A stretch of DNA of 34,550 nucleotides from a virus, in the IMG/VR virus record IMGVR_UViG_3300001533_001001, positions 1 to 34,550 of that record. One strand, 5' to 3'. Each line of letters opens with the position of its first letter. Position 1 is the first letter of the stretch. A program made the position numbers and the translations under genes. Shown one piece after another: positions 5,853-27,028 of the stretch. The notes under the pieces were generated by a model, which was given only the letters and a program-made list of their open reading frames with translations, was not told the DNA's origin and made no database searches.

Positions 5853-8800
5853 TTACTTGAAGTCAACGGGGCATGCGCCACCGGCACAGTCAACATGTTC
5901 GAACGAAACATCTTCTTCTGCAAGTTCATTGTTGATCTTCTTCATATATTCCTGATAGTCTGCCTTGGTCATGCTCTGTTCAGGGAGATATTCGTAAGAA
6001 CTTGTACCCTTGGTTTGCGGCATAACTGAACAGCAACGAATTCGAGATTGATACTCGGTTAGCATATCCTTGAAGTGCTTGTGGTCGATAACATCTGGGT
6101 CATACTTGAGAGTGTATGAAATCTGGTTGCCCAAATCTGTTGGGTGTGGGTTACCCTCGGCATCCGTTCCATGAATCCAATACTTCTCACCCAACATGAG
6201 CCACTTGTATTGATCCTCGGGACTTGCTTGACCAGCGGTCACGATACGATCTGCGGGCATAACCTGTGAGAGGGTTGGCGCGGTTGGGAATCCAACAATG
6301 CTTGTTCCCTCGTATGACTTCAATTCGCGAACAGGATACCCCATACTCTTGTATTCCTCAACCAACGGATCATCGGTTCGGAATTGAACATTTCGCATGT
6401 AGAACTTCATAGACGGCAAATGCCAACCCTCGGACAGCCCGAAAAGTTTTGAAATTGTGCCCGAAGGTTTCACAGTGGTTACCGTGTGAGGAACTTCGAC
6501 ACCCAGAATCTTCGCATAACGCTCGGCTTCGTCTCTCACAGCGCGGTTGAATCGCGCCAGAGTGAGCCAGAAATCCTTGCTTTTTTCTTCGTCGATGAGG
6601 TCGTTGAAATCGTAACCAAAAAACTTCCATGCAAACTCATGGACACCGGTCATTCCTACACCGATACGGTTTGTTCGGTCTACCTCAGTCTTGTAGATCG
6701 AATCCATGGTATTGACCCGCATGAGAGCGCGCGTTGCTGCGCGGAAAGCATCCTCGGCTTCTTCGATACTGTCGGCATAGAATGGTACAACATCGGCGAT
6801 GACACAAAACCCACCCAGAAGCAACAGAACAATTTCTGCACATGGGTTGACGATCATGTTATACTTCTTACGCTTGGCTCGGCGAGCGAGTCGGCTAAGG
6901 TAAGACTGGGTTTCCTCTCGGATCTGATACTTCTTGGATCCGACATAATTGCCGTGGAGAAGATTCTGCATCTTGGAGTCATTACGCTTCAACTTGTCAA
7001 CATTGATAAGACCCGGTTCACCCGTCCCGTCTCCATAGGAACATGCCGTAAGCATACGGTGAACCTTGCGAGCATGGATAGCATCATCGGTCATATACTC
7101 TGGTGTTCCCTTTTTCGTAGCAAGCAAACGCCAGTATTCTGCGTCAACGCAAACCGAATTGTTTGCCGACCACAGGAAAGACATGAACGGGAATAGTCCC
7201 TTTTCCTCGCGGTCTTTTCGCATCTCCATGACTTCATCAACACTCTTGCCATGGTATTCAATTGGTCGCTTGATCTGGACGAATTCAAAGATGCTTTCAT
7301 CTTTCCAGAACTTGGTTGACATTCGGGCGGCTCGTCTCGCACCACCTACCAGAACACACTCAGCAAAGTAGTGGTCCATATAGAGGGCTTGCTTCCAAGG
7401 TGCGATACCCGCCCCCTTGAGGGTTGCTGCCTTGTTGAATGCGTTCATGAGCGGGACTGGACCGGATGCTGGTCGGTCTTGCATACCACCAATGGGTGAA
7501 CCTGAACAGCGGACATCTGAAAAGTCAAGAATCAACATCTTGTGAGAATGAACCTTTTCGTGTGCCGCTGTTTCCCAGATTTCAAGTGCCTGCGCCCAAC
7601 CCTCTCGCGAGTCAGGAACCTTGAACCACATGATATGCTTGCCATCCCCGTATTTGTGTTTGGCATCACGGACGCTAGTGTGAGCGGAGTAGTCAAAGTC
7701 TTTGTGGGAGTCATCGAGAACACAAATCAGGTTTGGAGCATGATCCCAGTCAACCAGAATCATATCGTCGTCATAACACCGCCCAACACCCGATCCGTTC
7801 AAGAGAAGATAGAACAGCGTGAATGTTGAAGCCGCCGTAGAACAGTTTCCGGTCACAAGACCGTTTGCAAGGGTAAACGATTGTGTTACCGGCTCCGAAA
7901 CACAATATACCGGGACCGCTGTAGAATGAAGTTGCTTACTGACTACCTTTCGCTCGGCATTTTCGCGTAGTCGAACAGTGTAAAGTGGTTTGCCATTGGC
8001 AAAAGACCCGTCTCCATCCGTTCTCTCTTGACAACGAACAGCGGCAACGATGTATCCCGCGTAACTCGCATAAGACTTTAGCCACTCAACGGCTCCGGGA
8101 TTGCTGGTGGAGATGATCTTCACTCCGGGGAGATCAGATTTATAACCATCCGCCAACCACCACCCCTGAATAAATCCAGCAATGTATTCCGGATCAGTAG
8201 TAAAAGGCAATTCTTTCGCGTGTCCGAGTTTTCCAAGATAGTAAACCCGATCACCGTCAGCGTGTGGGGGGGTGGTGTAGTGATAACCGGCTTTGTCGAA
8301 AATATCCCAGACTTGATCTTTTACGCTGTCTTTGTTGGACACCCGGATGCTTGCATATGTTCTTCCTTGAGATACCCGGCGCGTTGTGTCGATTCGAGAC
8401 TTATGGGCAGTTCCATCGCCAAAAATGAGACCGTGAACAACCCCATCAGGATCCTGAGTGGTTTCTAAAACTGGTGATACGATTCGATCACCAACCTTTA
8501 GGTTAGTTGTAATCTTACCATCGGACAGAAACCATCGGTGGTTTTCGGTGGCAATTGCTGTATTTGTGTAGTGGTCTGTGGTCCCGGTTCGGCTTGCAAA
8601 CTTGTATTCGTAGACATCTTTGTTGCCATGAGAAGAAACGAGCGCGGGTCTCCAAACACCATCTTTACATCGAACGGTTACTGTTTCACCAACGATATTA
8701 CGAAATTTGACCGAACCATATTCAAGGGTGGCAATCTCGGTATCTCCGTCGAAACAATTCGTAAAAATTTCTTGTACGCGACTCGGCTGGTTTTCATCTC

Positions 8801-15042: not shown

Positions 15043-15071
15043 ATTATACCAGAATTGAAAACCCCTGTCAA
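15043..15071 (-). promoter_or_regulatory. Sigma70-type promoter for the rnh operon
   Basis: On the minus strand, TTGACA (15071-15066), 17 bp, then TATAAT (15048-15043): a perfect match to both consensus boxes. It points at the 385-residue gene 31 bp downstream. Unlike four other early promoters here it has no DnaA box upstream. Its -35 overlaps one arm of a hairpin. Confidence 0.85.
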
Positions 15072-15773: not shown

Positions 15774-16193
15774 TCAGATGATACCCAGAGCGCGACCAAA
15801 TCGCGCCGCACCCGACGACCCCGAAATTCGGAACACGGTCAGGAGTTCGTCAACGATGGTATCGAGTTCCTTGACCCGAGCGCGCCGCCAAGCGTAGCAC
15901 TCGGAACGAAGTTCCTTGGTGGTATCATGGAGCCACCCAAGGGTCTGACTTGCGGTCTCGACCGCTTCCCAACCGGGAGCCTCGATGCCGAAGTCAGCCG
16001 TGCAGGGCATGCACTTGTGAGCGGATCGGGGGGAGACATAGAAGCACAGCATCCGCCAGACATACGCCGCTTCACCGTCAGCGGGCTTCGACGCGCGGAG
16101 AGTTCCGCCACGACCCTCGATCAAGCGAGCGAATCGCTGCGCTTCGGTGGAGAGAGCGGAGACATTGGGCATTGCAGGCATGGGTCTTGTCAT
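15774..16193 (-). CDS. Hypothetical protein, unknown, GC-rich gene
   Basis: 139 residues from ATG 16193, chosen because GGAAAGGA lies at correct spacing and a consensus promoter is 28 bp upstream. An earlier in-frame start at 16208 would overlap the Shine-Dalgarno. The protein is helical with RWRRARVKELD-like charged stretches, and it has a possible metal site CMPCTADFGIE. Its base composition is visibly more GC-rich than its neighbours, and a 144-codon open frame exists on the other strand over the same bases. Promoter and Shine-Dalgarno decide for the minus strand. Function unknown. Confidence 0.7.
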   Translation of the reverse strand: MTRPMPAMPNVSALSTEAQRFARLIEGRGGTLRASKPADGEAAYVWRMLCFYVSPRSAHKCMPCTADFGIEAPGWEAVETASQTLGWLHDTTKELRSECYAWRRARVKELDTIVDELLTVFRISGSSGAARFGRALGII

Positions 16194-16220
16194 TGAGTTC
16201 CTTTCCAAGGGTGAGTCTCA

Positions 16221-16270
16221 ATTATAGCAGATACGCGAACCCGCGTCAACGGCTAAGGGAGTTATCCACA
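16221..16270 (-). promoter_or_regulatory. Early promoter with perfect DnaA box (copy 1)
   Basis: Reading the minus strand: TGTGGATAA (16270-16262, the perfect DnaA box TTATCCACA on plus), 12 bp, TTGACG (16249-16244), 17 bp, TATAAT (16226-16221), then a leader ending CTTGGAAAGGAA before the ATG. The same layout recurs at three other promoters in this window. Confidence 0.85.
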
Positions 16271-16307
16271 AAGAATTCACAAAAATATTGTCTGGTCTCC
16301 GTTAGGG

Positions 16308-16700
16308 TCACTTCCAGTCTCGCTTGATCTTCCGATTGGAAAACCCCTCGGTGATCCCGTCCAGATAACCCGTAAGATGCTCGATATCCTTATTGGGCAA
16401 CCGATGCCCATGACGGGGCAAATGGGCTTTGAGCGTGTCCAGAGCCGCTTCTAGGTCCGCTACGAGCCGCCTACGCTTCGCCGCCTCGGGAGACCCGGTA
16501 AAGGTCCAGAGTTCGTCGTGAGAGCAATACAGACGGTCTCCGGGAACCCCTTCTTTATTGCAGGAGAATACCCACCCGTTTTCGGTGGTCACTTCGTTAT
16601 CGGTCACCTTGACCACCTTGAGCCGTTTCGGGGCTTCACGACCAAATACGGGCTTCACCCACGCAATTGTACCCACCTTGACGGGAGTCTTCCTTGCCAT
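16308..16700 (-). CDS. Hypothetical protein, unknown
   Basis: 130 residues. The N-terminal half is beta-rich (VKVGTIAWVKPVFGREAPKR, then VVKVTDNEVTTENGWVFSC), like a small SH3- or KOW-type barrel, and the C-terminal half is a pair of charged helices. AAAGGAAG precedes the ATG. It stands alone under its own DnaA-box promoter. No family can be named; an early regulatory or host-takeover role would fit but is inference. Confidence 0.75.
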   Translation of the reverse strand: MARKTPVKVGTIAWVKPVFGREAPKRLKVVKVTDNEVTTENGWVFSCNKEGVPGDRLYCSHDELWTFTGSPEAAKRRRLVADLEAALDTLKAHLPRHGHRLPNKDIEHLTGYLDGITEGFSNRKIKRDWK

Positions 16701-16722
16701 GTGTCACTTCCTTTCACCCCCC

Positions 16723-16772
16723 ATTATACACTATCGGCAAGATCCCTGCAAGCCTTTAGTGAGTTATCCACA
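16723..16772 (-). promoter_or_regulatory. Early promoter with perfect DnaA box (copy 2)
   Basis: Minus strand: TGTGGATAA (16772-16764), 12 bp, TTGCAG (16751-16746), 17 bp, TATAAT (16728-16723). The segment ACTCACTAAAGGCTTGC and the GCCGATAGTG before the -10 are nearly identical to copy 3 at 16915. It drives the 130-residue gene. Confidence 0.85.
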
Positions 16773-16808
16773 ATTTTTCGATTTTTTTCGATTTCTGCCA
16801 GATTCCCC

Positions 16809-16836
16809 TTGACAGGTTCGGGAACCATCGTATAAT
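16809..16836 (+). promoter_or_regulatory. Consensus sigma70 promoter in the divergent hub
   Basis: TTGACA, 16 bp, TATAAT. It lies about 120 bp upstream of copy 3 and reads the same way. The first transcribed bases contain a small hairpin (GGCG-TGT-CGCC) and no Shine-Dalgarno or frame before copy 3. It may make a long leader or a small RNA. Confidence 0.75.
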
Positions 16837-16914
16837 TGGCGTGTCGCCATTTGAGGGATAGATCTATTGAGAACCAATTATCACTCAATCCAAACAGATC
16901 CCGGACAAAAAAAT

Positions 16915-16964
16915 TGTGGATAACTCATTAAAGGCTTGCGGTCGATCAACCGATAGTGTATAAT
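16915..16964 (+). promoter_or_regulatory. Early promoter with perfect DnaA box (copy 3)
   Basis: TGTGGATAA (16915-16923), 12 bp, TTGCGG (16936-16941), 17 bp, TATAAT (16959-16964), then a leader CACCTTTGGAAAAGAACCC before ATG 16992. It shares AAAAAAATTGTGGATAACT with copy 4 and the spacer with copy 2. It starts the rightward early operon. Confidence 0.87.
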
Positions 16965-16991
16965 GGAGTCTCACCTTTGGAAAAGAACCCG

Positions 16992-17306
16992 ATGCCCACC
17001 CGTGAACAGATTGAATCGTATGTCTCAGAATGGAACGAGATTTATCAGGACTTCTACCAGAAGACTTGCCCCTCAATGAACCCGTCTCTGGTTATCAACT
17101 GGGGTCGGAAGTATGCTAAGATTGTCGTGACCCGACCGAACACCCCCGGTGGATCGGTCCATGCGTTTATCGAGATCGCAACTGGTGATATCTTCAAGCC
17201 CGCAACTTGGGCATCACCTGCTAAGCATGCCCGTGGTAACATTTCTCAGCCGATCAAGACCACGATGACCGGTTACGCTTACTCACCCCCTTACCTGCGG
17301 AGTTGA
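16992..17306 (+). CDS. Hypothetical early protein, unknown
   Basis: 104 residues from ATG 16992, which follows the conserved GGAAAAGAACCC leader; the frame is open upstream to 16956, but that part is promoter. The protein has helical N-terminal (REQIESYVSEWNEIYQDF) and beta-rich C-terminal parts (VHAFIEIATGDIFKP, ending YAYSPPYLRS). The central INWGRKYAKIVV and the ending resemble small phage proteins that I cannot name. First gene of the rightward early region. Confidence 0.75.
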   Translation: MPTREQIESYVSEWNEIYQDFYQKTCPSMNPSLVINWGRKYAKIVVTRPNTPGGSVHAFIEIATGDIFKPATWASPAKHARGNISQPIKTTMTGYAYSPPYLRS

Positions 17307-17417
17307 ATCATGCGATTCCCCTGATCACACAATCAGATTTGAGTAGCCCCGCTGCAATTCATGCTGCACGGGCGAATCTTGAAACTGCGATACTGGGGGT
17401 CTTGCAAGACCCAGTAG
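17307..17417 (+). other. Non-coding gap with several potential hairpins
   Basis: There is no convincing gene in this gap. It can fold into CTGAT/ATCAG (17321-17336), an arm AGATT/AATCT enclosing GCCC/GGGC and TGCA/TGCA (17335-17379), and TACTGGG/CCCAGTA (17391-17416) with a perfect 16-bp palindrome GGGTCTTGCAAGACCC inside. The first two share bases and exclude each other. It may be a structured leader of the next gene, or an operator. Confidence 0.35.
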
Positions 17418-17507
17418 ATCGCTCTGGACTGGAACAAGAATCTTTTTGCTCTGGTCTACACAATCAAGCAATCAATTACTGATTATGTTCCAAATGCAGT
17501 TGATGTT

Positions 17508-17816
17508 TTGTGCCGGGCATACTTCCCAGAGTTCCCGAATAAGACAATCTGCCAGTGGGGAGAAAAGCATCTTTACAAGATGACATATGCTGGAAAACAT
17601 GATATCATGGGATACCGTGCGGGGAAAGAGGGAGTCAGATATTTGCGGAAGTCTGACGAAAAGGTGTTTCAAAATATTCTGAAACTTCAAGAGAAAAATG
17701 AAGAACTTCTGGCAATGCGGGCGGATGACATTGACAGGGGGGTGGTTACCGCGTATAATGGAATTTGTTCACAGACGCTTGCATACCACGAAGGGGAAGA
17801 CGATGCAGAAACTTGA
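17508..17816 (+). CDS. Hypothetical protein with uncertain start
   Basis: 102 residues if started at TTG 17508, but the frame is open back to 17418 and reads protein-like there (LDWNKNLFALVYTIKQSITD). No ATG or GTG exists, and no Shine-Dalgarno fits TTG 17508. The true gene may start at a rare codon near 17424, or may have lost its start through a frameshift. The visible protein is helical with VDVLCRAYFPEFPNKT, WGEKHLYKMTYAGKHD and a charged helix. Its last 14 bp overlap the next gene. Function unknown. Confidence 0.5.
   Translation: MCRAYFPEFPNKTICQWGEKHLYKMTYAGKHDIMGYRAGKEGVRYLRKSDEKVFQNILKLQEKNEELLAMRADDIDRGVVTAYNGICSQTLAYHEGEDDAET
17731..17759 (+). promoter_or_regulatory. Consensus sigma70 promoter inside the preceding gene
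   Basis: TTGACA, 17 bp, TATAAT, a full match to both boxes, located near the 3' end of the preceding gene and 44 bp before ATG 17803. No DnaA box precedes it. It would independently drive the coupled membrane-protein operon. Confidence 0.8.
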
Positions 17817-18087
17817 TCGAAGCGAACTGAGCAAGAGTGGAGTTGAAGGGATTCTCGCCGGGGACAAACCGGTTTCGGTGGTGTTTACCAAAGCCGATGG
17901 TTCCCGCCGAGAGATGGACGCAACCCGAAATGTCCGGTTCATCCCGGAGAGCAAAATGCCGAACGGAGGGGGTCAAACCCGAGTTGAAAACGACAATCAG
18001 GTTCGGGTCTTTGACACGGGATTGCAAGAGTGGCGTTCATTCAACCTTGATCGGCTTCTGAGTTTGGATGGGGTTGAGATCTCATGA
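17803..18087 (+). CDS. Hypothetical protein, possible nucleic-acid-binding fold
   Basis: 94 residues from ATG 17803 (Shine-Dalgarno AAGGGGAAG). The frame continues upstream to 17698 but crosses the promoter. The pattern VSVVFTKADGSRREMDATRN, then NVRFIPES and a C-terminal FDTGLQEWRSFNLDRLLSLDGVEIS, resembles small phage proteins with an SH3-like or WYL-type beta fold. I recall similar short proteins annotated as SH3-fold proteins in T4-like phages, but cannot confirm. Its stop overlaps the next start as ATGA. Confidence 0.7.
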   Translation: MQKLDRSELSKSGVEGILAGDKPVSVVFTKADGSRREMDATRNVRFIPESKMPNGGGQTRVENDNQVRVFDTGLQEWRSFNLDRLLSLDGVEIS

Positions 18088-18350
18088 CCGGTCTCCCCGC
18101 GATGATTATCTCACTTAGTGCATATGCCCTTGCTTGGGTTGTTTTCATCATTGCTCTACGGATTGCCACCGAGTGGGATCTGAGGGTTTTGAAAAACAAG
18201 CAACTTGGTCTTGAGGGTAAAGAGAAAAGGTGGACCCATCATGCTGAGATGATTTACAAAACCCGACGCGAACCGTTACATCGGAAAATCAATGTTTTGA
18301 TGATATCTGTCGCCGGATATCCGGAATATTTGGTATGGATTTTACTGTGA
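18084..18350 (+). CDS. Small membrane protein, unknown
   Basis: 88 residues. One clear N-terminal membrane helix (MIISLSAYALAWVVFIIALR, about 7-26), a charged middle (KNKQLGLEGKEKRWTHHAEM), and a hydrophobic C-terminus (INVLMISVAGYPEYLVWILL) that may be a second helix. The ATG overlaps the previous stop by 4 bp, so it is translationally coupled. Its last 16 bp overlap the following membrane gene. Role unknown; inner-membrane action is inferred. Confidence 0.7.
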   Translation: MTGLPAMIISLSAYALAWVVFIIALRIATEWDLRVLKNKQLGLEGKEKRWTHHAEMIYKTRREPLHRKINVLMISVAGYPEYLVWILL

Positions 18351-18673
18351 AAGAAAATTACAAAACCGATTCATGGTTTCTCGGAAACATACTCGCCATC
18401 ATGCATGGCGATGGTGGTCACTATCAAGCGGACCACGGTACCGAAAAAGCAGTTGAAGATGCCCTGAAAAAGTGGTATGATAGGGCTGACCGAATCGAAA
18501 AGTTGGAATTTCGACTTGAACTCGAACGCGAGTATCGGAAGAATCCACCGAAGCCGACCATCGGACTCCAAGTAAAACGATTCTTAGGTTTCCTCTTTCG
18601 GTGGGGATCAATCTTTGTGATTTTCTGGATTTTTCTGTATCTCGTTATTACTCTACTTTATCTGGCAGGATGA
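18335..18673 (+). CDS. Conserved phage protein with C-terminal membrane helix
   Basis: 112 residues. The N-terminal segment (GNILAIMHGDGGHYQADHGT, then EKAVEDALKKWYD) is a pattern seen in many phage proteins of unknown role, usually MHGDGGHY followed by a helix. Here it is joined to a charged coiled-coil-like helix and a C-terminal membrane segment (GSIFVIFWIFLYLVITLLYL). The added membrane anchor is unusual for this motif. It overlaps both neighbours and ends as ATGA with the propeller/dockerin gene. Confidence 0.72.
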   Translation: MDFTVKENYKTDSWFLGNILAIMHGDGGHYQADHGTEKAVEDALKKWYDRADRIEKLEFRLELEREYRKNPPKPTIGLQVKRFLGFLFRWGSIFVIFWIFLYLVITLLYLAG

Positions 18674-20196
18674 CTATTATGCATGGGAAAACCCTTGTCG
18701 GTATTACGGTCGCTATCAGTTTGGTTGTAGTTGCTGTTGTGATCTTTGGATCTTTCAAACAATCTCATCCCGGTCAACAGGCAACCGGTCAGGGTTCGAA
18801 AGACCCCCCAACCGCTCCGGGTGGGGAACCGGAAAACTATTACAGCATTCAATCTTTGGATCCATGGATCTATGAACTTTCATATCCACCGATTGAGGGG
18901 TATGAAGATGTCGGTTATTTCTTCAACCGATTGAGTGACGACGGGAAGTATGTCAGCGGATATGTTCGATACCGCCCGACCACCGAAGACTCAAATGAGT
19001 ATGCCGCAATCTATTGGGATCCACCAACGGTCTTCCGGGACAAAGCGCAGGTGATGTATCTTGAGCCACCTGTTGCAGCGAGTGGTCTTCAATATGCGAA
19101 GACTTGGGAATCCAATTTTGACTTTTCGTATGTTGTGGGATCTGCTCTGAACCCGAATGCACAGTGGATCCCCAATCGTGCAGCATACTGGACTGCTGGT
19201 GGGTTGCAGTTTCTAAATCCACCTGCTGGATACGAACTTATTGGTGTGATTGGTGTCTCCAATGACGGATCCGTAATGGTCGGTCATGCCCGAGACGAAA
19301 GCGGAAAAGAGTATGCTTTCCGGGATGACTCTGGTGAAGTGACAATTCTATCCCATTTAATTGAAGGCGGTGAGTCGGCAGCCACCCGCGTCTCTGGCGA
19401 TGGAACTACTGTAATCGGGCATTCACTGAACAGCAATGGAAAATTCGTGGCGGTTCGATGGATCGGAACAGACTTCATCGAAGACCTTGGAATTGACCAA
19501 GAGGGTGACTTGGCAATCTACGCCAATGATTGTTCATATGATGGGTCAACTATTGTCGGTCGCATTCTTCGCAATCGTGAAGTAGAAATGCCCGATGGTC
19601 CCGAGACAAGACCTATTGCCACACACTTCTGGTGGCATGAATCAGATGGGTTCTATGAAGTCCCTGAGATCGTCAACTGGCGGGGTGGATCGGACTTTGG
19701 ATATGACTATGGCGGATGGAATGTTACGATCAGCAAAGATGGTCGAGAAGTCTTTGGGGGAGCAAACGGTCTAGCGTATTACTGGTCTCCCGATGACCCC
19801 GAACTTTATCCCCACCCCGATCCGGATATTGTATGGTATGAACCCGGATTGAAGCCGATCCGTACATACTTCCGTATGCGAAACCGTGAATCGAACTACC
19901 CGTGTTGCTCGTTTCAGACCGTCTATGATGTCAGCGACAACAATCGCATCTTTCTGGTCAAAGTGAAACCCGGTTGGGGGACGACAAGTATCGTAGTTAA
20001 TGTAGGTGTTGAATATCTACAGGCAGACCTAAACAAGGACCGACAGATTGACATGCAAGACTTGAACTTGGTACTTGCCAACTTCGGAACAGGTTTGATT
20101 TACGGTGACGCAAACGGAGACGGTTGGACCGATCTTGAAGACTTGAGCATTGTGCTTGCCAACTTTGGATATGAACAGCCACTACCAGAGGATTGA
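18670..20196 (+). CDS. Membrane-anchored HAF-repeat propeller protein with paired dockerin-like repeats
   Basis: 508 residues from ATG 18670, which overlaps the previous stop as ATGA; the frame is open to 18601 but that lies within the previous gene. An N-terminal signal anchor (GITVAISLVVVAVVIFGSF, about 10-28) is followed by a Gly/Pro/Gln linker. The body has repeats of the HAF type (VSNDGSVMVGHARDESGKEYAF, ISKDGREVFGGA and similar, at least four), suggesting a beta-propeller. At the end come two EF-hand-like dockerin repeats, DLNKDRQIDMQDLNLVLANF (453-472) and DANGDGWTDLEDLSIVLANF (480-499). Such pairs typify secreted Planctomycetota proteins. The dockerin loops would bind Ca2+, and the protein probably faces the periplasm or outer surface. 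It looks acquired from a host, possibly to alter the surface or block superinfection. Confidence 0.8.
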   Translation: MTIMHGKTLVGITVAISLVVVAVVIFGSFKQSHPGQQATGQGSKDPPTAPGGEPENYYSIQSLDPWIYELSYPPIEGYEDVGYFFNRLSDDGKYVSGYVRYRPTTEDSNEYAAIYWDPPTVFRDKAQVMYLEPPVAASGLQYAKTWESNFDFSYVVGSALNPNAQWIPNRAAYWTAGGLQFLNPPAGYELIGVIGVSNDGSVMVGHARDESGKEYAFRDDSGEVTILSHLIEGGESAATRVSGDGTTVIGHSLNSNGKFVAVRWIGTDFIEDLGIDQEGDLAIYANDCSYDGSTIVGRILRNREVEMPDGPETRPIATHFWWHESDGFYEVPEIVNWRGGSDFGYDYGGWNVTISKDGREVFGGANGLAYYWSPDDPELYPHPDPDIVWYEPGLKPIRTYFRMRNRESNYPCCSFQTVYDVSDNNRIFLVKVKPGWGTTSIVVNVGVEYLQADLNKDRQIDMQDLNLVLANFGTGLIYGDANGDGWTDLEDLSIVLANFGYEQPLPED

Positions 20197-20198
20197 TT

Positions 20199-20519
20199 AT
20201 GAAAGACATTCAAAGCCCGTTGGACCTCTATTACCAGTTGTTGATTTTGGGGGAGAAACACGACCTCAAGGTTACATGTAATGAAATTCTTGACCGAGCG
20301 AACCGTTTGAGTCGATTCACGATCAGTAGCACTAGGGAACCGGAAGTAGATAATCTAATGATTTGGGCTACCGCACTGCGATGCGCACAAGTTGCATATC
20401 TGGCAGTGAGAGCCATCAAGGATATTGACAAGGATACCAAAGAGATGTTTGGTCGATGGGTGGGACAGTGTGCAAAAATGCTTGACGGTGCCATGCAAGG
20501 ATTGGAAGCCTCTCCATGA
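20199..20519 (+). CDS. Hypothetical helical protein, unknown
   Basis: 106 residues, soluble and all-helical by pattern (SPLDLYYQLLILGEKHDLKV, WATALRCAQVAYLAVRAIKD, FGRWVGQCAKMLDGAMQGLE). A Shine-Dalgarno (AGAGGATTGATT) precedes ATG 20199, just after the propeller gene stop. It shares its first four residues and 12 bases (ATGAAAGACATT) with the next gene, perhaps a conserved start region. It is coupled by ATGA to the next gene. No family known. Confidence 0.7.
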   Translation: MKDIQSPLDLYYQLLILGEKHDLKVTCNEILDRANRLSRFTISSTREPEVDNLMIWATALRCAQVAYLAVRAIKDIDKDTKEMFGRWVGQCAKMLDGAMQGLEASP

Positions 20520-20788
20520 AAGACATTACTGAACTCATTCACAAGATAGTGGACGGTGTGGCAAGGATTCTTGAAGCGGCAATCGGAGAACTCTATAATA
20601 TTCTGTTCATAGGGTTCACTTTTTTACTCCCGATCTTCTGGTATGGCATGCACTACATGGTGGACACGCTTGCAGACAAGGCAGATCGCGAAATTGGAAG
20701 GGGAACCGATTTCATGATCTTTATCGCGTTTCTTCTGACTTGGTTTTGTCTACTCGGTCAGACATTCAATGAAAAGAGAGAAAAGTGA
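20516..20788 (+). CDS. Small protein with two membrane helices, unknown
   Basis: 90 residues. An amphipathic N-terminal helix (ITELIHKIVDGVARILEAAI) is followed by membrane helix 1 (NILFIGFTFLLPIFWYGMHY) and, after a short charged loop, helix 2 (FMIFIAFLLTWFCLLGQTF), ending in KREK. Both termini would be cytoplasmic. ATGA overlap upstream and GTGA overlap downstream place it in the coupled early operon. A holin-like role is possible by size and topology, but no lysis partner is nearby. Confidence 0.7.
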   Translation: MKDITELIHKIVDGVARILEAAIGELYNILFIGFTFLLPIFWYGMHYMVDTLADKADREIGRGTDFMIFIAFLLTWFCLLGQTFNEKREK

Positions 20789-21012
20789 ACCATCCGGGAA
20801 AACCCTCAGTATACCGTCCTGACGGATCCATCGACCCCTTTGAGTTTGGGCGGGCAAACTATATCGCTTGGATCGGGCAATACGAGCATCGGGGTGACGA
20901 GCCGTCGATTCCGCTCCCTTGGCAGGCATCCGATGCCGAATATCGGTCTTTCTGGGATGGTTGGCGACACGAAAGAGAAATTCACCGCCAAAACTCCCGA
21001 ACAGATACCTGA
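20785..21012 (+). CDS. Small hypothetical protein, GTG start
   Basis: 75 residues starting at GTG, whose bases overlap the previous stop (GTGA). The protein has an aromatic core (FEFGRANYIAWIGQYEHR, then DAEYRSFWDGWRHEREIH), similar in style to small phage proteins with a ...FWDGWR ending. No family is known. It is the last gene of this operon; its end lies 10 bp before the DnaA box of the next promoter. Confidence 0.6.
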   Translation: MNHPGKPSVYRPDGSIDPFEFGRANYIAWIGQYEHRGDEPSIPLPWQASDAEYRSFWDGWRHEREIHRQNSRTDT

Positions 21013-21021
21013 CAAAAAAAT

Positions 21022-21072
21022 TGTGGATAACTTCCCTAAAGGGTTGACCCCCGTTTGCCGATATGGTATAAT
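21022..21072 (+). promoter_or_regulatory. Early promoter with perfect DnaA box (copy 4)
   Basis: TGTGGATAA (21022-21030), 13 bp, TTGACC (21044-21049), 17 bp, TATAAT (21067-21072), then CCCCTTTGGAAAGGAACCC before TTG 21102. The leader and upstream A-run match copy 3 closely, although 4 kb away. Confidence 0.87.
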
Positions 21073-21101
21073 GGGGGTGTCCCCTTTGGAAAGGAACCCG
21101 A

Positions 21102-21326
21102 TTGACTTGGAATAAATTGCCGAAGAACTTTCGACCGAAGCGAGAACTCGACGATATTGATCTCGATGCTGAGCGTGAGGGTAACGCCCTACGAACTGCC
21201 CGAACCGAGCAGGTGATTCGTCGTCCGGTCGGAAAGTCTGTTCGCCGTCAGTGGGATGGTATGGATCGCGCGGCTCACCGTCTCGATGTCCGGATCAAAA
21301 ATCGGTATGTTGAGAAATCATCATGA
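21102..21326 (+). CDS. Small basic hypothetical protein, TTG start
   Basis: 74 residues. The TTG occupies exactly the place of the ATG in the copy-3 cassette (GGAAAGGAACCCGA then start), which decides the start. It is rich in Arg, Lys and Asp (NFRPKRELDDIDLDAEREGN, ending RLDVRIKNRYVEKSS) with no hydrophobic segment, so a nucleic acid or protein ligand is plausible. It is coupled by ATGA to the next gene. Confidence 0.65.
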   Translation: MTWNKLPKNFRPKRELDDIDLDAEREGNALRTARTEQVIRRPVGKSVRRQWDGMDRAAHRLDVRIKNRYVEKSS

Positions 21327-27000: not shown

Positions 27001-27028
27001 TTGACACATGTCAAAATTCGGGTATAAT
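27001..27028 (+). promoter_or_regulatory. Sigma70-type promoter with inverted repeat over the -35
   Basis: TTGACA, 16 bp, TATAAT, 31 bp before ATG 27059. The -35 lies in an inverted repeat TTGACA-CA-TGTCAA (27001-27014), a possible repressor site. Its position means the long open frame from 27008 cannot be translated from its first codons. Confidence 0.75.

Follow-up and report, generated by a model that had tools for sequence, protein, structure and literature searches.

DnaA boxes at a fixed place in the promoters of a phage

When a virus carries the same perfect DnaA box at the same place in front of several promoters, a simple question arises: which protein, if any, reads this box? The locus that raises it lies in the IMG/VR virus record IMGVR_UViG_3300001533_001001, a linear fragment of 34,550 bases (the whole of this stretch is hereafter called the window), where the 9-mer TGTGGATAA (or TTATCCACA on the opposite strand) is found in four exact copies, each within a promoter cassette (W1 to W4; Table 1). 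A preliminary description of this DNA had reported these four 9-mers and no others; their positions and strands prove correct, and a fifth exact copy is absent from the window.

First-order Markov resampling of the window gives an expectation of 0.30 exact copies as compared to the 4 observed (P(>=4) ~3e-4), in line with the earlier claim that the repetition is not due to chance. Each of the four boxes precedes, in one and the same orientation, a TTGNNN-N17-TATAAT promoter; 12, 12, 12 and 13 base pairs (bp) separate the box from the -35 element, and the spacers are all 17 bp long, so that the fixed geometry originally proposed holds for every copy. The scan of the window for the composite of box and promoter, which had been suggested as a check, yields these four matches, and the reversed control pattern yields none; for four boxes placed at random, the probability of all falling at this position is ~7e-15, a crude figure, the copies being homologous. 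Boxes lying away from promoters at a background rate had been named as the outcome that would speak against the idea; in the window, all four exact boxes are at promoters. When one mismatch is allowed, the 9-mer is found at the background level (8 copies vs 8.5 expected) and, hence, the signal resides in the exact box and its position. Since the cassettes are homologous copies, the counts given here and below are not independent.

The description of the surroundings of the box holds in part. Three copies out of four have the flanking words CTAAAGG and GCCGATA, W3 in the variant forms TTAAAGG and ACCGATA, and W1 has neither of them; the shared leader is present in full (TTTGGAAAGGAACCC) in W4 and as close variants in W1 and W3, and W2 has only GAAAGGAA.

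Recurrence of the cassette in a second phage

Scanning 2.9 million viral contigs of IMG/VR with the pattern TGTGGATAACT-N8-14-TTGNNN-N-TATAAT returned 40 stretches, mostly single sites with scattered spacing. A repeated cassette was found in one other phage, the T4-like IMGVR_UViG_3300001533_000775 of 49,901 bases (hereafter, G001), whose cassettes contain the same CTAAAGGCTTGAC, CCGATAGTGTATAATGG and CTTTGGAAAGGAACCC parts as those of the window. G001 has seven exact boxes, six of them at promoters of the TTGNNN-TATAAT type and the seventh (28662) at no recognizable promoter, and two decayed cassettes, one with the box lost (8798) and one with a degenerate box, TGAGGATAA (22726).

The cassettes of the two phages are 72-85% identical (blastn). 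Comparison of the encoded proteins gave a single weak match, between the start of the window and the end of G001 (E 6e-5), the other matches being frames antisense over the cassettes themselves; between the two phages, both represented by incomplete fragments, hardly any protein homology is detectable. Different cassette copies are followed by unrelated genes. Thus, the two phages have reused one control element before different genes and have retained it.

Further scans of IMG/VR, with a looser cassette and with the leader, detected no phage beyond G001. Deposited phages contain no near match to the searched region of the window, 50,697 phage records gave no cassette match beyond chance, and the T4-like relatives found via the single-strand-binding protein and the DNA polymerase lack the cassette. 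A second contig (L171) contains an identical copy of the polymerase gene with which G001 starts and has no box in the 13 kilobases (kb) examined; searches with two other proteins of the window found no relatives. As a separate observation, the 48-kb viral contig IMGVR_UViG_3300037264_002810 (L015, L037) contains a nearly identical DnaA-box promoter twice, near its start and near its end, possibly as a terminal repeat.

The T4-type proteins of the window include a member of the single-strand-binding protein family, a T4 RNase H-like 5'-3' exonuclease and a tail protein, and the window also encodes thymidylate synthase and a B12-type ribonucleotide reductase; G001 encodes a T4-type DNA polymerase, UvsX and a DnaB-like helicase. 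The T4 late promoter TATAAATA occurs at background frequency only. G001 also carries 30 tRNA genes in its 50-kb fragment, 29 of them within 8 kb (L099 10958-18945).

Conservation and pairing of the box

Mean pairwise identity, computed over the 11 cassettes with a recognizable box (12 cassettes in all), reaches 0.92 in the box, 0.97 in the -10 element and 0.72 in the -35 element, as compared to 0.57 in the stretch between the box and the -35 element and 0.36-0.42 in the halves of the spacer; when the two phages are compared with each other, the identity of the box is 0.94. The box staying at 0.92 while the spacers drifted argues that it is not a passenger sequence.

The box also has company. 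The 12 cassettes were scored against TGTGGATAA at all offsets between -60 and -9, counted from the -35 element, and 9-mers with at most two mismatches were found solely at offsets -21/-22 (11 of 12 cassettes) and -32/-33 (four copies of G001, with the -35 element at 8117, 8685, 16734 and 22072; W1 has three mismatches there). The two positions form direct repeats exactly 2 bp apart. When up to three mismatches are allowed, a second in-line box at this distance is present in 5 of the 12 cassettes; for the four second boxes with at most two mismatches, P is ~2.5e-8, homology being ignored. In the G001 copies at 8685 and 16734 (G2 and G4), it is the upstream box that is perfect, and a box with one or two mismatches occupies the canonical 12-bp place. 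The second box played no part in finding the cassettes. In vivo, DnaA of E. coli binds mainly to paired boxes with 2 or 3 bp between them (PMC11317965); the phage pairs have this spacing, which points to DnaA as the probable reader of the box, although 7 of the 12 copies have no clear second box.

Strength of the -35 element

None of the 11 boxed promoters has TTGACA as its -35 element (the hexamers are TTGACG, TTGCAG, TTGCGG, TTGACC, TTGACT and TTGCCT), and the -10 element is TATAAT in 10 of the 11. Among the unboxed TTGNNN-TATAAT promoters located outside genes in both phages, 6 of 8 have TTGACA (Fisher P 0.001; 0.012 with three in-gene matches counted as unboxed; the value is indicative only, the copies being related by descent). 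A weak -35 element that is accompanied by a protein site further upstream typically marks a promoter as activated. DnaA activates nrdAB, although at high DnaA-ATP it represses nrdAB, as it represses dnaA, and it stimulates transcription in phage lambda, possibly via RpoB (PMC8203912).

The same geometry in bacterial promoters

In 84,980 genomes of bacteria and archaea, the pattern TGTGGATAAST-N10-12-TTGNNN-N15-17-TATAAT was found at 67 places, 50 of which have the 17-bp spacer, as in real promoters. The genes downstream include dnaA, dnaN, gyrB, rnpA, ftsA (a conserved family in Chloroflexota), mraZ and a Clp ATPase; of these, ftsA, mraZ and clp are usually not near oriC. In Patescibacteria (380 genomes, searched from G014), a wide-gap version of the pattern gave 24 matches vs 0 for the reversed control, mostly with gaps of 2-8 bp, which might be a second geometry; in Verrucomicrobiota, there was 1 match in 388 genomes. 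These numbers indicate that the combination of box and promoter is present in some bacteria and does not arise everywhere by chance.

The Chloroflexota family deserves mention in its own right: in L229, L222, L242, L254 and L259, promoters of ftsA-family genes have a DnaA box, a weak -35 element (TTGTCA or TTGTCG) located 10-13 bp downstream of it (the distance being counted after ACT/AGT) and a 17-bp spacer, and are conserved between genomes. This family is a candidate for a cell-division gene controlled by DnaA.

Host DnaA as a putative activator of phage promoters

Taken together, the comparisons of sequence described above show a real, repeated and conserved promoter class in two T4-like phages. 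We moderately favor the view that it is a multi-copy family controlled by host DnaA at the box, with activation as the probable outcome. Its members are sigma70-type promoters in which a perfect -10 element and a non-consensus -35 element are set 16-17 bp apart and which have a ribosome-binding leader in common; a consensus DnaA box occupies about -57 to -48, in some copies with another box 2 bp upstream of it or with an A-tract in front. Host DnaA sitting on the box would contact or stabilize RNA polymerase at the weak -35 element; transcription of these genes would set in upon entry into replicating hosts and would respond to the level of DnaA or to its ATP/ADP state. Early expression is suggested by the sigma70-type promoters and by the small genes of no known function behind them. 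What the sequences show is the box, its position, its conservation in two phages and the lack of a recognizable DnaA gene in both fragments; that DnaA of the host binds the box, that it activates and does not repress, and when it acts are what we infer.

The preliminary description had envisaged DnaA of the host, or a phage protein with the same specificity, acting upstream of the -35 element. The recurrence in G001, the conservation of the box, the 2-bp pairs, the weak -35 elements and the bacterial geometry all support such a protein; a DnaA encoded by the phage was not found in the two incomplete fragments. The other proposal, that the box is a UP-like element, is weakened, since the 9-mer does not resemble an A/T tract and separate A-tracts are located just upstream. 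We rejected the 9-mer as a UP element, as it is no A/T tract and is conserved base by base; the A-tracts upstream of the box may themselves be UP-like.

In a broader form, which we advance tentatively and with somewhat less than even confidence, a T4-like lineage would have made host DnaA the activator of a whole set of genes via a standard cassette, with DnaA at about -52, so that the takeover is tied to the replication state of the host; DnaA at this place would then represent a general arrangement for recruiting RNA polymerase, which bacteria use for cell-cycle genes.

Several observations weigh against control by host DnaA. In G001, one cassette has lost its box (8798) and another has a degenerate one (22726). 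A clear second box is absent, by the offset scan, in 7 of the 12 cassettes, and single consensus boxes of E. coli are often unbound in vivo (PMC11317965). DnaA is also a promoter repressor, and the position of the box is compatible with repression, too. Several of the bacterial examples are near oriC, a region dense in DnaA boxes. Finally, the homology of the cassette copies makes the counts non-independent.

Bacteria are already known to have DnaA-regulated promoters, and phage lambda has one as well; of a multi-copy phage family of this kind, an open-access search of the literature found no report. Transcription activation by DnaA has been described as poorly understood (PMC11317965), and the twelve homologous promoters, with natural double, degenerate and lost boxes and with unboxed promoters in the same genomes, make up a ready-made test series for it. 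If the proposed control is real, it ties the gene expression of a virus to a host protein that is essential, nearly universal and not easily dispensed with.

Other readings of the box

An activator encoded by the phage, with DnaA-like specificity, could bind the box instead; the boxed promoters would then be a middle class like that of T4 MotA, and the unboxed TTGACA promoters would be immediate-early. The weak -35 and perfect -10 elements of the boxed promoters, set against the consensus -35 elements of the unboxed ones, do resemble the early/middle split of T4, and the phage is T4-like. However, neither the C-terminal domain of DnaA (PF08299) nor its ATPase domain (PF00308) was found in the two incomplete fragments, with control genomes positive, and the MotA domain (PF09114) is absent from both fragments as well. 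Moreover, the 9-mer is the common DnaA consensus and the double boxes have the spacing typical of DnaA, so that another protein would have to have converged on both; we consider such an activator unlikely.

Similarly, there is only a small probability that DnaA acts as a repressor or switch, with oligomers of DnaA-ATP extending from the box across the -35 element and shutting the promoter off at high DnaA-ATP. DnaA does repress dnaA and, at high DnaA-ATP, nrdAB (PMC8203912), and dnaA itself is the downstream gene of several bacterial promoters that share the geometry. Yet the weak -35 elements are expected of activated, not of repressed, promoters, and the offset scan found no further box-like 9-mers between the box and the -35 element.

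It is quite improbable that the boxes serve replication, be it as phage origins, by recruiting DnaA and DnaB, or by titrating host DnaA away from host initiation, with the nearby promoters providing origin transcription. Three of the boxes are found within 662 bp around divergent promoters that coincide with the cumulative GC-skew minimum of the window, and an analogous divergent cluster is present in G001 at 8.1-8.8 kb. Nevertheless, 4 of the 6 exact boxed cassettes of G001 and 1 of the 4 in the window are located outside these clusters, an origin or decoy needs no fixed spacing or orientation relative to a -35 element, and G001 has its own T4-type polymerase, helicase and UvsX; besides, GC skew also tracks gene direction, and there is no clear flip at the G001 cluster. 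At the divergent cluster of 16.2-16.9 kb, with its skew minimum, a part in replication is conceivable, though copies elsewhere and the fixed spacing to the promoters favor transcription. The change in the sign of the GC skew at the divergent boxed promoters (window 16000-17000) fits either gene direction or an origin.

A box without function, carried along by a recent duplication of whole cassettes, is very improbable: the copies are clearly homologous, at 72-85% identity between the phages, but the box still stands at 92% where spacers are down to 36-45% and is retained in two phages that have hardly any detectable proteins in common.

Promoters and genes of the window

The coordinates of the boxed cassettes and of the unboxed promoters used for contrast are collected in Table 1.

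Table 1. Boxed cassettes and unboxed promoters of the window (ORF, open reading frame; aa, amino acids; RBS, ribosome-binding site)
Feature	Span	Strand	DnaA box	-35	-10	Other elements	ORF driven
Cassette W1	16178..16292	(-)	16262-16270	TTGACG 16244-16249	TATAAT 16221-16226	second DnaA-like box TGTGAATTC 16273-16281 (2-bp gap, 3 mismatches); leader CCCTTGGAAAGGAACTC	leftward, 15774-16208
Cassette W2	16682..16795	(-)	16764-16772	TTGCAG 16746-16751	TATAAT 16723-16728	RBS GAAAGGAAG	leftward, 16308-16700 (130 aa)
Cassette W3	16890..16993	(+)	16915-16923	TTGCGG 16936-16941	TATAAT 16959-16964	A-tract GACAAAAAAATT; leader CCTTTGGAAAAGAACCC	ending 17306 (DUF7717)
Cassette W4	20997..21102	(+)	21022-21030	TTGACC 21044-21049	TATAAT 21067-21072	A-tract present; leader CCCTTTGGAAAGGAACCC	21102-21326 (74 aa)
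Unboxed consensus promoter TTGACA-N16-TATAAT	16809..16836	(+)		TTGACA	TATAAT	between two divergent boxed promoters	
Unboxed consensus promoter TTGACA-N17-TATAAT	17731..17759	(+)		TTGACA	TATAAT		
Unboxed promoter TTGACA-N17-TATAATGG	15043..15071	(-)	none	TTGACA (consensus)	TATAATGG	leader GAAAGGAACCC	
Unboxed consensus promoter TTGACA-N16-TATAAT	27001..27028	(+)		TTGACA	TATAAT		

Elsewhere in the window, an ORF of 531 aa (18601-20196) has a dockerin-like C-terminal repeat (DLNKDRQIDMQDLNLVLANFG) and a weak, below-cut-off match to the HAF repeat, which is unusual for a phage gene. It recalls secreted proteins of planctomycetes, although as a pointer to the host this is a mere hunch.

Comparison with known systems

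The early and middle promoters of T4 offer the likeness of many similar promoters, conserved beyond the hexamers, in phages of the same type. The boxed promoters recall, in particular, the MotA-dependent middle promoters, in which a weak -35 element is combined with an upstream activator site; the weak -35 element with a perfect -10 element is the trait that they have in common with this class. In T4, however, the MotA box is located at -30, whereas the cassette described here has a DnaA box at about -52, with no MotA gene in the two fragments.

In phage lambda, the DnaA sites lie downstream of the transcription start. The likeness to pR and ori-lambda consists in a phage using host DnaA as a transcription factor, for which a contact with the beta subunit of RNA polymerase is proposed (PMC8203912, citing Szalewska-Palasz 1998). 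Unlike the single lambda promoter, which is tied to lambda replication, the promoters described here form a multi-copy class with the box at -52.

The DnaA-regulated promoters of bacteria, such as those of nrdAB and other genes in E. coli and of sda in B. subtilis, have promoter-adjacent consensus boxes, often paired 2-3 bp apart, from which DnaA activates or represses (PMC8203912, PMC11317965), and the present scan adds the same box-to-minus-35 geometry in several phyla. In these bacteria, the promoters belong to single host genes, whereas in the two phages one cassette is reused 4 and 8 times, respectively, before unrelated small genes.

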